Program-made: the position numbers and the translations under genes | Notes under the pieces: model-generated | Told to the model about the DNA's origin: nothing | Database searches by the model: none | The model's input: only the letters and a program-made list of their open reading frames with translations | Assembly: GCF_036880985.1 (NCBI RefSeq) | Contig: NZ_JBAJNO010000008.1 | Span: 310,001 to 374,000 of the forward strand | DNA: 64,000 nt | DNA from: Limibacter armeniacum | GTDB lineage: Bacteria; Bacteroidota; Bacteroidia; Cytophagales; Flammeovirgaceae | Direction of reading: 5' to 3' | Part shown: in pieces, positions 10,979 through 26,481 of the stretch | Layout: each line of letters begins with the position of its first letter | Numbering within the stretch: the stretch's first letter is position 1

Positions 10979-11042
10979 TTTTAATGTGCTATAACATCTA
11001 GCTATCGTTTATTCAAGCTTAATCCCTCTCAATATAGTACTA

Positions 11043-11368
11043 AGCAGAGATATAATTGAAATCGGAAGTTTTAAACTCATCGATGGTTTATAGGTTCAAC
11101 TCCTTTGGAGTTGGATAAATGTAATTTACTTATACCTCAGGCTTACGCCTAAGGCTACTATTGTTCAATCCCTTCGGGATTATTTTTTCATACAGCAAAC
11201 ACCGTTTCCGAAGGAAACAAACCATATTAGCTCCAGGTGGCAATCTGGATTTTACAGCAATCAATATATCATAACCCTGAAAGGGTTGAACAGGATAACA
11301 TCATTTAGTAGATCATAATATGTGAAAGGATTAGAGTAGGAAATCTCTATTCCAATTCAATACTTGCT
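11043..11368. mobile_element. Hairpin-array element copy 1, IS630-like ends
   Basis: This is a non-coding 326-bp element flanked by TA at 11041-11042 and 11369-11370. The left end AGCAGAGATATAATTGAAA and the right end (read inward AGCAAGTATTGAATTGGAA) are imperfect inverted repeats and match the ends of the IS630-family element at 25409-26458. Inside are six short hairpins in a row: CAACTCC/GGAGTTG at 11097-11113, AGGC/GCCT at 11139-11150, AATCCC/GGGATT at 11167-11181, GTTTCC/GGAAAC at 11204-11218, TCCAG/CTGGA at 11232-11249 and AACCCT/AGGGTT at 11272-11286. A second copy lies at 14767-15095 in the same orientation. It looks like a MITE moved by an IS630 transposase in trans. Confidence 0.75.
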
Positions 11369-11429
11369 TAAATCCAAGGTTAAATAAACGGATGATGATG
11401 GAGGTATGACCCGTGATTTATTGAGCATA

Positions 11430-11475
11430 AAAAAACATGAGCCATCACCGAATTATGAATTCGAGATGACTCATG
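11430..11475 (-). terminator. Intrinsic terminator of the gene at 11494-11994
   Basis: Read on the minus strand, a long stem (arms 11436-11453 and 11458-11475, with a few mismatches) is followed by a run of T's (A's at 11429-11435 on the plus strand). It lies just after the stop of the coiled-coil gene. Confidence 0.7.
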
Positions 11476-11493
11476 CTGCTATGGCGGTAATGG

Positions 11494-11994
11494 TTAGTTC
11501 AAGACCACGGAGCGCTTCAGAAACTTGAAAGTACCTTGAAAGCCAGTACTTCCTGTTTCTAGCCAATCAAGGATGGCATTGCCTCTTTCTTCTGCACTTT
11601 CAGCTAAGGCACTGGCAGCAGCAGATGTCAGTTGCTCATGTAGTACCTGCCCTACACTTGCCTTTTCGAGTCTACTTTCCAAAGTCTTGATACGGTCAGT
11701 TAGCTTTTTTAGTTCGTCTTTGCGTAACTCAATAACATCAGGGTCTCCATCAGCCTCTGCTTGTGTAACGGCAGACTGGGCACTAGGGAGTTGGCGTAGT
11801 TTGAAGTCCAGCTCTTCTGCATCTTTTAGGGCTGTTTGGGAACGACTGAGACGACCTTTTTCATAAGAAGACTCCTTGTCTTGATTTTCATGGTAGAGTA
11901 TTTCTATGGTGGTTAAACCTTCTGCTACAGCATCCGCATCAGGGAAACGCTGAGCAAACTCTTCATCAGGGAAACTACTTTTGTAGATACTCAT
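11494..11994 (-). CDS. Hypothetical coiled-coil protein, 166 aa
   Basis: Residues about 50-120 are rich in Glu, Lys, Leu and Gln with heptad-like spacing (ELRKDELKKLTDRIKTLESR), which predicts a coiled coil. A small Ala/Ser-rich helical segment follows (SAAASALAESAEE), then a C-terminal tail with GSTGFQGTFKFL. There is no signal peptide and no catalytic motif. The function is unknown; it may be a structural or cargo protein. It has its own terminator and lies between two mobile-element regions, but its composition is normal for the genome. Confidence 0.6.
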   Translation of the reverse strand: MSIYKSSFPDEEFAQRFPDADAVAEGLTTIEILYHENQDKESSYEKGRLSRSQTALKDAEELDFKLRQLPSAQSAVTQAEADGDPDVIELRKDELKKLTDRIKTLESRLEKASVGQVLHEQLTSAAASALAESAEERGNAILDWLETGSTGFQGTFKFLKRSVVLN

Positions 11995-12775
11995 GGTTGT
12001 TTTAAAGAGATTGAAAATAATTTAACGATATAGGTAAAAGTAGGGGGCAGGAAGTCAATATGTTGTTAGCAGATATATAGGACATTACATGGGTAAGAAA
12101 TAAGAGGAGGATGAGTGTTGTTGCAGTGCTCCTAAATCAACGTCAGTTAATGGGCATTACCATTTTTTAGCTTCGGGTTTGACTTCGCTCAGGGAACATC
12201 AAGCGTATCTTTTAATTTGTTTCAACTATTACAACTCCGTTGCTACCACTTGCTCCATAAATAGCTGTCTGGTTTTATGACTTCGAGCTTAGTAATAACG
12301 CTGTTGTTATATTTATTTAAGTCTGAAATATTAGCTGAGGTGTTGTTTGCAAGAATTAATGGGTAATGTTTTTATGAAATCATCGATTGTCTCGCTTTTA
12401 GGAATGCTAAGCTGTTTTTTGCCCAAATGAGAAACTGAAAGTATGTACCAGTATTAGGATAGCTATAATTTGTTTCATATGAGTAGTTCGGTTGTGTTGA
12501 TTATTTTATAAAAAAACTGCTGTGTGAATTCAGTTAAAATATTTGTGTTTTGTTTAGTGATGTCTGTTTAGTGTTTTGTTTATTCGTTTGCTAAGTGGTT
12601 AGAAATGGTGCTGTGTTTTAATCTAAATTTGTCATGCTGTTATCAAAAAAATAAAAGCAGCTAGCTTGACCGTGGTTTCAAAATATAGTTAACTGTAAGC
12701 TTTGCAGGTCAGAAGCTTCCCATTCTCCCCAATTTTTTGTAAAATCAGTTACCCTATAAGAACACTCTCCAATCT
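11995..12775. other. Long non-coding stretch around a pseudogene
   Basis: Apart from the frameshifted gene at 12212-12478 no intact reading frame is visible. A GACTTCGCTCAGGG word near 12181 is a motif often scattered in Bacteroidota intergenic DNA. The rest is AT-rich with no clear promoter pair. The stretch fits an eroding accessory region. Confidence 0.4.
12212..12478 (-). pseudogene. Frameshifted TonB-plug-like small exported protein
   Basis: Reading the minus strand from ATG 12478 gives a clean signal peptide (MKQIIAILILVHTFSFSFGQ), then a stop. Coding sense continues in other frames: SIPKSETIDDFIKTLPINSC, then SVITKLEVIKPDS, then AIYGASGSNGVVIVETN and a stop at 12212. The last part is the typical sequence at the end of a TonB-receptor plug segment, seen in short exported proteins of Bacteroidota. 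At least three frameshifts break it. It is therefore a decayed gene and not part of a receptor nearby. Confidence 0.6.
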
Positions 12776-12967
12776 ATGCGTCTACATAACGAACACCGCA
12801 GACAGATCAGCCTGATGCTAGCTGAGGGTAAATCGCTGGCAGCGATCGCCCGCAAGCTTGGTGTTCACCGTTCTACGGTGAGCCGAGAGGTGGCGCGCAA
12901 CAGTGAGTCGGATGGTGACTATCTTCCATATCGGGCAAGCCGCAAGGCACACCTACGCAGGGTAAAA
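12776..12967 (+). pseudogene. IS30-family transposase, N-terminal fragment
   Basis: Residues 1-64 from ATG 12776 are the helix-turn-helix head of an IS30-type transposase: EHRRQISLMLAEGKSLAAIA, then KLGVHRSTVSREVARN, and the YRASRKAHLRR continuation. After about residue 64 the reading changes abruptly to a Trp/Tyr/Arg-rich sequence with no resemblance to the DDE catalytic domain. The frame stays open to 13558, but that tail is probably not a real protein. So only the DNA-binding head of the element is left. The higher G+C here differs from its neighbours, which fits transfer. Confidence 0.65.
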
Positions 12968-13558
12968 GGGGGAGTGAAGTCCTACTGGAACCGTCAGCAA
13001 CAGTCAATGCCTAAAGGTGGTGTCTCCTACAGGAAGCGGTATTACAGCTTCAGTTCTCGCTACATAGGTTTGGCATGTTGGGGTTGGATGGAGCGTGGCG
13101 TACAGCGTCAGCGCAAAAGAATCTGGTGGAGACATGATATACGCACTTATCGGAGTCGTGTCGGGTGGGGCTATAGGCAGCGAAAGGCATGGCTGAATAA
13201 GCACCGCAACCGCAATGAGTGGGACATGTATTGCGAAAATTCTTATCGCTACCTGCATGGGCTGCTTAACTTTTCACCTTGTCCTTCTCTTTATGGTGAT
13301 GGGGCATCTATCAGGCAGAAGCCTTACAGTGAACGTCCTTACGTCAGGTATACCAAGTACTGGTGGTGGTTATATAAGGGTACCAAGGTCGTGGTACAGG
13401 AAGTACTTGAACAGGAACCAGACCAGAGGAGGGGTGTACAGGTAAAGCCAGATGGGGGGATGTTGTTAAGTTGGCGTAATACTTTGTCAAGGCAAGCTGT
13501 TTCTGATTTATTACCGGTTGGTGTAAGGTGTCGTAGTGGTCCTGATTGGGCTGCCTGA
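12968..13558 (+). other. G+C-richer patch with decayed coding traces
   Basis: All six frames are unusually open and the base composition is richer in G and C than the surrounding DNA. In the third forward frame short protein-like stretches appear between stops: MIYALIGVVSGGAIGSERHG near 13135-13194, and, after a stop, MSGTCIAKILIATCMGCLTF (from 13215), which looks like a membrane segment, running on to a stop at 13445. None is long enough to name. This is probably foreign DNA in decay, joined to the IS30 fragment. Confidence 0.4.
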
Positions 13559-13799
13559 TACATTAGCACTGTCTAGTAACTGTGCTTCGACTGCTTCGAT
13601 AGACTCGGCATAAGTACGCTCAGCATCAGGTTTAGATTTCTGGGCGAAGACAAATGACTTTTTGAGCTGCCTTTTTCATTCACTTCTCTTTTCCAATCCA
13701 AAAATCAAGCTGGCTCTCGTTGCTTCCTGTTGGGGGTGTTGCGTTTACTCCTGAATGGGCTAGGGTCTCCGTAGTAAGCTTTGCTGATTTGCTTCTTCT
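13511..13799 (-). pseudogene. Reverse-strand decayed coding remnant, unidentified
   Basis: On the minus strand a first part (13799 down to about 13683) reads as a normal protein piece that ends SNESQLDFWIGKEK and a stop. An ATG follows at once, and after a frame change the sequence reads SKPDAERTYAESIEAVEAQ and on to TTTTPYTNR with a double stop at 13508-13513. Both parts have ordinary residue composition. I cannot name the family; a piece of a mobile-element cargo or transfer gene is possible. Confidence 0.35.
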
Positions 13800-14008
13800 C
13801 TAATTAAGGATGACTTTCTTTCCGTAACGTGAATTAGGGTCATGCTAATCCATCACTTGCGTTCCGTAGGTAAATGGTTGAAATAAATCAGCAAATGACG
13901 TTGAGTTGTTGTCAAACATTCAGAAATTAACCAACAGCTTTATTTCTTGAGGTAAGCACTAAAGTGGGTGCTTATGAACTTTTGTCGACTTTTTTAAAAT
14001 AACTAAGT

Positions 14009-14449
14009 ATGGAATGTAGAATTGCCACATTGGAAGATCTTGAACAGATTGCACAACTGTTTGATGCTTATAGGGTATTTTATGAACAAGCGTCTGACAT
14101 CAAAGCGGCTGAAGCTTTTTTGGCTGAAAGAATAGCGCATAAGGAGTCTGTTATCATAATCGCAGAAAAAGAGGGGAAGTTGATCGGTTTTACGCAGTTG
14201 TATCCTACTTTTTCGTCTGTGTCTATGCAGCGTTTTTATATATTGAATGACTTATATGTAGTGCCTGAAGAAAGAAAAAATGGGGTAGGTAAGGCGCTTT
14301 TATTAGAGGCGCAGGCATTGGTAAAACAGAAAGGATGGAAGGGGTTGGCATTGGAAACAGCACCTGACAACCCTGCTCAGTTCCTTTACGAAAAGCTAGA
14401 CTGGGAGAGGGATAGTGAGTTCTACCATTATTTTTGGCGTAACAAGTAA
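14009..14449 (+). CDS. GNAT-family N-acetyltransferase, 146 aa
   Basis: The GNAT fold is visible: an N-terminal ATLEDLEQIAQLFDAYR helix, strand IIIAEKEGKLIGFTQLYP, then LNDLYVVPEERKNGVGKALL carrying the acetyl-CoA pyrophosphate loop (R-K-N-G-V-G-K) near residue 93, and the C-terminal FYEKLDWER-type end (FLYEKLDWERDSEFYHYFW). It transfers an acetyl group from acetyl-CoA to an unknown amine. It is cytoplasmic. Its TAA stop codon is part of the left end of the small inverted-repeat element at 14447, so the element inserted exactly at the gene's end. Confidence 0.88.
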   Translation: MECRIATLEDLEQIAQLFDAYRVFYEQASDIKAAEAFLAERIAHKESVIIIAEKEGKLIGFTQLYPTFSSVSMQRFYILNDLYVVPEERKNGVGKALLLEAQALVKQKGWKGLALETAPDNPAQFLYEKLDWERDSEFYHYFWRNK

Positions 14450-14602
14450 CGTGAACTATGATTATGCCGTCCTTTCAGGGGTGAAAATATCATTTGCATG
14501 ACAATGGACTAAAGTCCATCGCTGATATATTTTGTTCCTTCAGGACTTTTGACATGAAAGGGCCTTATGCAATAGCGATATTTCCATCCATAACTCACGT
14601 TA
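14447..14602. mobile_element. Small inverted-repeat element, about 156 bp
   Basis: TAACGTGAACTATG at 14447-14460 and CATAACTCACGTTA at 14589-14602 are inverted ends with 12 of 14 matches. Inside are a perfect ATGGACT/AGTCCAT hairpin (14516-14531) and two short CCTTTCAGG/CCTTCAGG hairpins. It has no coding capacity. It touches the acetyltransferase stop codon and separates that gene from a downstream terminator-like hairpin at 14711. This is a MITE-like element of a type different from the 327-bp arrays. Confidence 0.55.
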
Positions 14603-14710
14603 AGTAATAAAAATAGAAGGACAGGTTTGTACCATTTTATCTTTATGGGGTTTTGAGAATGTGTTGGTTAGTTCAATCCTAAAATGGTTGTAACCAATAA
14701 TTCATTAAGC

Positions 14711-14752
14711 AAGGGTACTCACGTAGGGTTGTTTCTCTATGTGGGTACCCTT
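14711..14752 (+). terminator. Terminator-like hairpin
   Basis: AAGGGTACTCACGTAG and CTATGTGGGTACCCTT pair over 16 positions with two G-T type changes and a 10-base loop, followed by a T-rich stretch. It is probably the original terminator of the acetyltransferase gene, now about 260 bases away because the small element inserted between them. Confidence 0.6.
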
Positions 14753-14766
14753 GGTTATTTTATTTA

Positions 14767-15095
14767 AGTAGCGGTATAATTGAAATCGGAAGTTTTAAGC
14801 GCTTGAATGATTTATAGGTTCAACTCCTTTGGAGTTGGATAAATGTGATTTACTTATACCGCAGGCTTTTGCCTACGGCTACTATTGTTCAATCCCTTTG
14901 GGATTATTTTCTCTTACAACAAACACCGTTTCCGAAGGAAACAAACCATATTAGCTCCGGATGGTAATCCGGATTTGACAGCATTTATTATCTTATAACC
15001 CTGAAAGGGTTGAACAGGGTAACGTCATGATTTAGTACCTCATAATAGGTGAAAGGAGTAGCGTAGAAAATCTCTATTCCAATTTAGTTCTTGCT
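14767..15095. mobile_element. Hairpin-array element copy 2, IS630-like ends
   Basis: A 329-bp direct-repeat partner of copy 1 (11043-11368), at a rough estimate 85-90% identical, flanked by TA at 14765-14766 and 15096-15097. It keeps the same six hairpins. Two stems differ from copy 1 by paired changes: the second stem has CCG/CGG where copy 1 has CCT/AGG, and the fifth has TCCGG/CCGGA where copy 1 has TCCAG/CTGGA. Loop bases differ more freely. The ends match those of the IS630-family element at 25409. It has no coding capacity. Confidence 0.75.
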
Positions 15096-15258
15096 TATAT
15101 CCATTTACCTCTATTTTTTAATTCTGAAGAAGTGTTATCCTCCATCATTGACGTTATTATAAAACCTCTTTAGTCGAAAGTATCTATTTTGCTGTGCAGT
15201 TTGTAACAACCTTTCTATTTTTGGAACTGCATTTTTTGACTAAAAACATTACCATAAA

Positions 15259-25388: not shown

Positions 25389-25408
25389 AAATCCCTAAGG
25401 AGTAATTA
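25389..25408. terminator. Left half of terminator split by an IS
   Basis: AAATCCCTAAGGAGT at 25389-25403 is the left arm of a stem whose right arm, ACTCCTTAGGGATTT, lies at 26464-26478 beyond the insertion sequence. Joined across the target TA they give a perfect 15-bp stem, an eight-base loop (AATTATTA) and a T tail, in the right place to serve both DUF1573 and uvrC genes. Confidence 0.7.
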
Positions 25409-26458
25409 AGCAGAGGAACAATTGAAAACGGAAGTTTTGTTGTGATATCATGAAACCACAACTGACTCTGACACCAGAAGATCGCAGCAAGCTCGAAAAG
25501 CTGTATAAGTACGATACCTCCTCACGGGTACGCCTCCGTTCTCATGCAGTCCTGCTTTACGCCCAAGGCTTTAACTTTACACAGTTAACTGAGATCTTGC
25601 AAGTGAATAAAATCGAAACGGTTAGCCGTTGGATTCAGCATTGGCAACAGCACGGCTTTTCAGGTCTGTATGATAGCAAGCCACAGCAGCATCCCCGCAA
25701 AAGTTTCAAGGCGTCAGAGGAAAAAAAATCATTGATTTCCTAAAGGATGGCGTACAGCGCTTGTCAAGAGTTCAAACCTACATCAAGGAGCATTGTCAAA
25801 AGTGGGTGAAAGTCTCAACGCTACGACGTTGGATGAAGAAATGGGGTTACCGATGGAAAAGAAGCCGCAAAAGCTTGCTGCATAAACGGAATCAGGAAGA
25901 CTTTGAAAAAGCCCACCAATGGCTGAATACACTTAAGAAAAAGGAGGAGCAGGGAAGAATCGATCTTTATTTCTTTGATGAAATGGGCGTCAACCTTATC
26001 CCAAGTGTGCCTTATGCATGGCAACTAAAAGGTAAAAGGATATTGCTTCCTTCCGTGCCAAGTGCAAATCTGACCGTACTCGGGTTTATGAGTAGAACAC
26101 AATCATTCAAGTCTTTTCTCTTTCAAGGGGCTGCCAACTCTGAAATAGTTATTGAGTGCTTTGATCGCTTTGCCAGTGACATAATTCGTCCAACCATTGT
26201 CGTGTTAGACAATGCACCTACACATCGAAGTCATAGATTCAAGGAACAAATCGAAAAATGGAGGGATAAAGGACTTATACTCTTCTTTATCCCTCCTTAT
26301 TCTCCTGAGCTTAATTTGATTGAAAGACTCTGGAAAGAAATAAAATATACATGGTTGCCTAAGTATGCTTATACCTCTAAACAAGACCTAGAAAAACAGA
26401 TAATCTATATCCTTGAAAACATAGGAGAGAAATTCTCCATTTCATTTCAATAGTTGCT
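25409..26458 (+). mobile_element. IS630-family insertion sequence, 1,050 bp
   Basis: The element is bounded by TA at 25407-25408 and 26459-26460, the target duplication expected for IS630/Tc1-mariner transposons. The left end AGCAGAGGAACAATTGAAA and right end (read inward AGCAACTATTGAAATGAAA) are imperfect inverted repeats. It carries a transposase in two frames joined by an A8 slip site. The transposase stop codon lies inside the right inverted repeat. Both ends match those of the hairpin arrays at 11043 and 14767. Confidence 0.85.
25450..26453 (+). CDS. IS630-family transposase made by -1 frameshift
   Basis: The first frame (25450-25743) encodes the helix-turn-helix head (RVRLRSHAVLLYAQGFNFTQ, then VSRWIQHWQQHG). 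The second (to 26453) encodes a winged helix and the DDE catalytic domain: Asp in YFFDEMGVN, Asp in VVLDNAPTH and Glu in LNLIERLWKEIK. They join by a -1 slip on eight A's at 25721-25728, after which the sequence continues KKIIDFLKDGVQRLSRVQTY. This arrangement is known for other IS630-type elements. The fused protein is about 334 aa, full length, and all three acidic residues are intact, so the element may be active. Confidence 0.85.
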
Positions 26459-26481
26459 TATTAACTCCTTAGGGATTTTTT
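26459..26481. terminator. Right half of terminator split by an IS
   Basis: ACTCCTTAGGGATTT at 26464-26478 followed by T's is the mate of the arm at 25389-25403. Standing 22 bases after the uvrC stop in minus-strand sense, it can no longer fold locally with its partner because 1,050 bp separate them. Confidence 0.7.

Follow-up and report, generated by a model that had tools for sequence, protein, structure and literature searches.

The closest described counterpart of the elements reported here is RUP from Streptococcus pneumoniae, a 107-bp non-coding intergenic miniature inverted-repeat transposable element (MITE) that has the TA target and ends like those of the resident insertion sequence (IS) IS630-Spn1; its mobilization in trans has been proposed, and the review, in the part available, names no functional motif in it (PMC2229807). 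Intergenic hairpin arrays, with copies flanking a Y1 transposase gene, are known from the repetitive extragenic palindromic (REP) sequences, bacterial interspersed mosaic elements (BIMEs), and REP doublets forming hairpins (REPINs) that accompany the REP-associated tyrosine transposases (RAYTs) (PMC2817692, PMC3733652). A repeat array inside an intergenic MITE of a member of the Bacteroidota is found in BrickBuilt of Porphyromonas gingivalis, in which the array is a 23-nt minisatellite and the ends are different; the accessible portion of that paper describes no Y1-linked hairpin array (PMC4596501). Another repeat is stated by its authors, in the part of the paper seen, not to be a MITE (PMC4755523). 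The present analysis deals with a 64,000-nucleotide stretch (the window; C8:310001-374000) of the genome of Limibacter armeniacum (GCF_036880985.1; 8,038,033 bases in 9 contigs), which contains two non-coding hairpin-array elements, referred to below as MITE copies 1 and 2, and an IS630-family IS with similar ends (Table 1).

With a probability of about 0.85, these elements are IS630-type MITEs that were cut and pasted into TA dinucleotides and that carry a Y1-type hairpin array, most likely captured, the third hairpin of which (H3) seems to be used as a prophage site. They share with RUP a non-coding intergenic nature, ends like those of a resident IS630, a TA target, and a proposed mobilization in trans but, unlike RUP as treated in the available part of that review, hold an array of six hairpins similar to those flanking a Y1 gene and form prophage junctions, so that the mode of movement is ordinary and the cargo is unusual (PMC2229807). 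Compared with REP, BIME, and REPIN sequences, as far as the excerpts of the cited papers describe them, the arrays are multi-hairpin structures of ∼230 bp that also reside inside DDE-type MITEs, and the Y1 gene of this genome, unlike those of RAYTs, falls below the NCBI cut-off for REP transposases (PMC2817692, PMC3733652). DDE-type cut-and-paste MITEs and the hairpin repeats of single-strand HUH transposition, which are usually treated apart, are thus joined in one element. A search of the open-licence literature revealed neither a description of MITEs with IS630 ends around REP-type arrays nor one of prophage integration into the hairpin of a MITE.

The consensus of the young MITE copies matches the left end of the IS at 27 of 30 positions without gaps, compared with 20 of 30 for the best placement elsewhere in the window (124,088 placements), and its right end at 25 of 34 positions, compared with 22 of 34 elsewhere; the left-end likeness is far above chance, and the right-end likeness is modestly so. 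Alignment of the MITE with the IS (E value of 1e-3) is limited to MITE positions 1 to 30 and 281 to 329, the latter match overlapping only the last bases of transposase open reading frame (ORF) B. The MITE contains no transposase gene and shows no match to the body of the IS630 transposase gene, in agreement with an earlier claim, made in a sequence-only reading of this DNA, that the arrays are not simple deletions of the IS: their interior is not IS-derived. Terminal inverted repeats are present, albeit imperfect and gapped, with an outer AGCA and an inner AATTG-type block pair.

The dinucleotide TA is found on both sides of 26 of the 28 MITE copies with both ends placed. This tally started from 29 copies treated as complete, one of which (L024) gave no right end, and excluded truncated copies and prophage-split halves. 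The left TA is present in 26 of the 28 (the two misses are L020, which has AA, and L037, whose start is ill-placed) and the right TA in all 28, likewise when TA is omitted from the search pattern. Beyond the TA, the flanks differ between the copies, with a T before the left TA in 22/28 and an A after the right TA in 18/28, so that the preferred target looks like TTA/TAA. An empty site was recognized for copy L005, which lies within a repeat of a second array family: its flanks, joined at a single TA, align without a gap to uninterrupted paralogs, with 79% identity to L054 and L064, 78% to L057, and 72% to L055.

With element 1 as the query, the source genome gave no fewer than 47 matching places, including 13 near-full-length ones of ≥87% identity (query included), and with element 2, no fewer than 48; both counts are lower bounds, as scoring covered 40 of 87 and 40 of 78 candidates, respectively, and some copies enter the counts as two pieces. 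Copy 2 is 87% identical to copy 1, and nine copies (query included) form the youngest group, at ≥95.7% identity. The left-end 18-mer occurs in 26 exact, 13 one-mismatch (4 of these being the IS), 7 two-mismatch, and 21 three-mismatch places, a total of 67 with up to three mismatches versus 20 for the reversed control. None of the 25 MITE copies compared with ORFs of ≥120 amino acids (aa) overlaps one, and copies are found between neighboring ORFs of every orientation. The sequence-only reading regarded the arrays as MITE-like passengers and proposed a whole-genome search with the ends, an alignment of all copies, and a comparison of their number with that of the intact IS. Each of these supports its view: the copies retain IS-like ends and TA, they align, and there are ∼40 MITEs against 4 full and 1 truncated IS. 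The coordinates, ends, and TA flanks that it gave for both arrays and the IS all proved correct when the letters were read again. Neither the resemblance of the interior to the arrays at a Y1 gene nor the presence of prophages in it figures in that reading.

Among 18 genomes of the family, the element was found only in its own, apart from a single 30-bp end match in G004. That match (L143:1500-1530) is a lone MITE-like left end that follows a TA; the rest of the element is absent, its neighborhood contains no IS, and a clear partner end was not seen. In a scan of the genome_contigs collection (84,980 species), from which the own or near genomes may have been left out, a left-end pattern matched a single stretch, L112, a chance match within a reading frame of Elusimicrobia that was rejected. 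An end pattern had no match in IMG/VR, and element 2 had none among plasmids.

Table 1. Coordinates of the MITE copies, their hairpins, the resident IS630, and the Y1 gene (window positions unless a contig is given)
Feature	Position	Strand	Details
MITE copy 1	11043-11368	+	326 bp; TA at 11041-11042 and 11369-11370
MITE copy 2	14767-15095	+	329 bp; TA at 14765-14766 and 15096-15097
H3 core AATCCCTTCGGGATTA, copy 1	11167-11182	+	same core at 7/8 prophage junction places
H1, copy 2	14821-14837	+	CAACTCC-TTT-GGAGTTG
H2, copy 2	14859-14878	+	
H3, copy 2	14891-14906	+	T-variant of prophage junction core (AATCCCTTTGGGATTA)
H4, copy 2	14928-14942	+	GTTTCC-GAA-GGAAAC
H5, copy 2	14956-14973	+	
H6, copy 2	14997-15011	+	AACCCT-GAA-AGGGTT
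IS630-family IS with MITE-like ends	25409-26458	+	TA at 25407-25408 and 26459-26460
Transposase ORF A	25450-25743	+	97 aa, helix-turn-helix
Transposase ORF B	25761-26453	+	DDE_3, PF13358; frame open from 25680 or earlier
Y1_Tnp gene (L051)	C8:1426650-1427093		148 aa; only Y1_Tnp gene found in genome

The resident IS has the DDE_3 domain and the TA target of the IS630 family. Its ORF B scores 109 bits with PF13358 and 162.9 bits with NF033545 (cut-off of 100), and a run of 8 A residues in ORF A (25721-25728) suggests that a -1 shift there would join ORF A to ORF B. The genome carries four identical full copies, each flanked by TA at a different site, and one truncated copy at 99% identity. The copy in the window (25390-26480 with its surroundings) occupies the TA at the center of a palindrome, CCTAAGGAGT...ACTCCTTAGG, that is followed by a T-run and looks like a terminator hairpin.

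Judging from the ends, the MITEs were probably mobilized in trans by the resident IS630 or by a now-lost close relative. The MITE ends of ∼45 bp that resemble those of the resident IS would be recognized by its DDE transposase, or by that of the relative, which would cut the element out and paste it into TA, preferably in the TTA/TAA context and in intergenic DNA. The ∼230-bp array would have been captured between IS630 ends and then carried as a passenger, and some copies would have taken up further inserted arrays. Less probable, albeit worth serious attention, is the explanation that the MITEs were spread by a related IS630 with ends closer to theirs, now gone, and that the resident IS is only a cousin. 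The differences at 3 of 30 and 9 of 34 end positions fit this explanation, as does the 123-bp L235:495-617, which lies between TA, has IS630-like ends on both sides, and has no array: its left end carries the IS-type GGAACAATTGAAAAC block instead of that of the MITE. L235 is a plain MITE of the same group. However, a search of the genome for DDE_3 (PF13358) returned the same five IS places and nothing else, and IS630 relatives in G014, G181, and G021 have other ends (TAAGTA...), where these could be placed by comparing copies.

The core of the MITE, ∼230 bp with six hairpins that can be drawn in copy 2, is collinear with the arrays in both flanks of the sole Y1 (HUH) transposase gene found in the genome. 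It is 70% identical to one of these over 233 bp, with the same hairpin order (E value of 1.3e-28), and 75% identical to the other over 141 bp. Arrays without the IS630-like ends are found at other places as well. Thus, L043/L085, L083, L103, L096, and L097 match the MITE from positions 52 to 65 up to at most 280, with the ends unmatched, and L110 matches positions 48 to 161 and 189 to 227; L044, L027, and L038, being truncated MITEs, were kept out of the count of free arrays. The left half of L085 is MITE-like, and its right half resembles the Y1 array. Given this collinearity, the core is most likely a Y1-type array captured between IS630 ends. In the compound copies L022, L026, and L030 (∼490, 770, and 540 bp), an array of the second family is found at the same internal position, at different TA sites; the inserts are of unequal length (155, 214, and 218 bp), and on the simplest reading, a compound element would have been moved as a whole. 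The second family is also represented in the window itself, at 14448-14601, with ends like AACGTGAAYTATGGATTA and AAGT on both sides, and short direct repeats flank several, although not all, of its copies elsewhere.

The hairpins of the MITEs are well kept. In 22 copies, 95.2% of the pair cells are standard (93.7% in shuffles and 26 to 56% in slid structures), with 28 to 40 of the 40 pairs formed per copy, and an initial suggestion that the hairpins are eroded was dropped. Two-sided changes affect 2 of the 40 pairs versus 1.9 in shuffles, a weak covariation that was not accepted as proof of an RNA function. Of 20 copies, 11 show a mismatched pair in hairpin H2. The complete copies L010 and L012 are without most of this hairpin, so H2 is dispensable for spread. 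The folding z-scores are -3.7 for copy 2 (DNA, ends included), -3.7 for copy 1 (RNA, against shuffles), and -6.5 for the Y1-flank array (DNA), a rough comparison, given the unequal lengths and the inclusion of the ends in the fold of copy 2.

The good state of the stems, the collinearity with the arrays at the Y1 gene, and the existence of arrays without IS630 ends would all be expected if the elements were REP-like sequences moved by the Y1 (HUH) transposase, their IS630-like ends being incidental. This explanation is improbable: the nine recently multiplied copies end at the IS630-like ends and TA, L010 and L012 are complete without most of H2, and copy 2 folds less strongly than the Y1-flank array, subject to the difference in length and ends. 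Even less credible is the view that the arrays are regulatory or terminator RNAs of the host that lie between TA by chance, since, despite the absence of overlap with ORFs and the stronger-than-shuffled RNA fold of copy 1, one empty site exists, the copies lie between ORFs of every orientation, the window contains no match at the gathering score of any Rfam family, and the covariation is weak.

Several points weigh against capture and IS630-driven spread as the history of the MITEs. The empty-site comparison covered 31 joined flanks (27 from MITEs and 4 from the IS) and was made with the collected loci rather than the whole genome; an uninterrupted paralog was found for just 1 of the 31, and this empty site is paralogous, not orthologous. 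The ends of the MITEs differ from those of the IS, and there are several times more MITEs than copies of the IS, so that the mobilizer could be another IS630 now lost. Well-kept stems would not be required of a mere passenger. Capture is deduced from ∼70% similarity, and the border between core and ends is not uniformly sharp, as the array L109 reaches MITE positions 31 to 46 on the left. Finally, the movement itself is deduced rather than observed.

The Y1 protein encoded elsewhere on contig C8 scores 81.6 bits with PF01797 and 65 bits with the IS200 model NF033573 (cut-off of 55) and only 24 bits with NF047646 (cut-off of 80), so that it does not qualify as a canonical RAYT (REP_Tyr). Members of subclass 1.2 of TnpA-Y1 are of about 148 aa, have a low copy number, and carry the signature DH[IV]H, WQ, and Y---Q--HH; Table 1 of the source, which was seen in part, gives "no" for REP in this subclass (PMC6006769). 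With the motifs DHLH, WQ, and YIKRQKEHH and one copy in the genome, the protein can be placed in subclass 1.2 by its motifs alone, with L in place of I/V in the first of them. It shares with that subclass, as described in the available part of the paper, the length, the WQ and Y---Q--HH motifs, the low copy number, and the occurrence in Bacteroidetes; in contrast to the absence of REP tabulated there (PMC6006769), four or more hairpins flank this gene, and the same holds for 22 of the 29 relatives examined.

A set of 291 genomes from the order, sampled from a larger group, yielded homologs of the Y1 protein (E value of 0.001) in 145. The flank survey covered 30 loci, the one in L. armeniacum and 29 of the best-scoring relatives, and the Y---Q--HH motif is present in 29 of the 30. 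In these 29 loci, hairpins with a stem of at least 6 occur at 7.19/kb within 500 bp of the gene and at 1.43/kb at 700 to 1400 bp, versus 0.26/kb in the letter-shuffled flanks. Four or more near hairpins are found at 23 of the 30 loci and fewer at the other 7, and four loci (L147, L150, L162, and L166) are hairpin-rich farther from the gene too. The clustering of hairpins near the gene suggests that such arrays may be the REP-like partners of this Y1 lineage in the order, which would provide a likely cognate hairpin array for a Y1 subclass listed as REP-less.

Two kinds of prophage, of about 35 and 39 kb, lie between left parts (positions 1 to 143) and right parts (from position 125) of MITEs. 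The junctions, at H3, carry the 16-bp core listed in Table 1 for copy 1 at both ends, with one base off at one left junction. Eight junction halves, four left and four right, were read, but they were counted as two copies of a 34.9-kb element plus one 38.7-kb relative because the breaks in contigs C8 and C9 appear to lie within one and the same repeat; 18,155 bases are common to both ends of C9. The 34.9-kb copies are 99.9% identical as read from the contigs, and the 38.7-kb relative shares only its two end regions with them. The scanned ORFs of the 34.9-kb element include tape-measure-like, portal-like, and primase-like ones, and those of the 38.7-kb relative include tape-measure-like and terminase-like ones, some of the scores being weak. 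A tyrosine integrase of 386 aa, identical in prophage A and the 38.7-kb relative, is encoded ∼270 bp inside the left junction. The same core at both junctions and a tyrosine integrase beside one of them are features of a prophage attachment site, and H3 seems to serve as attB for these prophages and would then be recognized by their integrase. Among 59 integrase records found in the phage collection, all are below 60% identity, and IMG/VR yielded no relatives.

The genome has 25 exact cores, with either C or T at the variable position (none for the reversed control): 7 are prophage junctions, 15 are other MITE copies, and 3 (L271, L274, and L280) are without an IS630-like left end. The spread of the MITE would in this way disperse potential phage sites over the chromosome, which suggests that a mobile non-coding repeat can act as a repeated prophage attachment site. 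The full nested scheme, in which an HUH lineage listed as REP-less has its own arrays, an IS630 captures and spreads one of them, and a hairpin of the captured array is the attB of a phage integrase, is more tentative than IS630-driven movement of a captured array and somewhat short of even odds; if it is true, transposition multiplies the phage integration sites. The MITE halves at the junctions belong to distinct subtypes: those of pair A are copy-1-like on both sides, and those of pair B are copy-2-like on both sides. The 38.7-kb relative has two halves of different subtypes, a pattern that argues against one simple insertion or in favor of a later exchange. The pair read from C9 is mixed as well, with the left half of B and the right half of A, and would fit C8 and C9 as parts of one replicon. 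In the loci L239-L248, the two contigs appear to be broken within the duplicated prophage and may form one chromosome.

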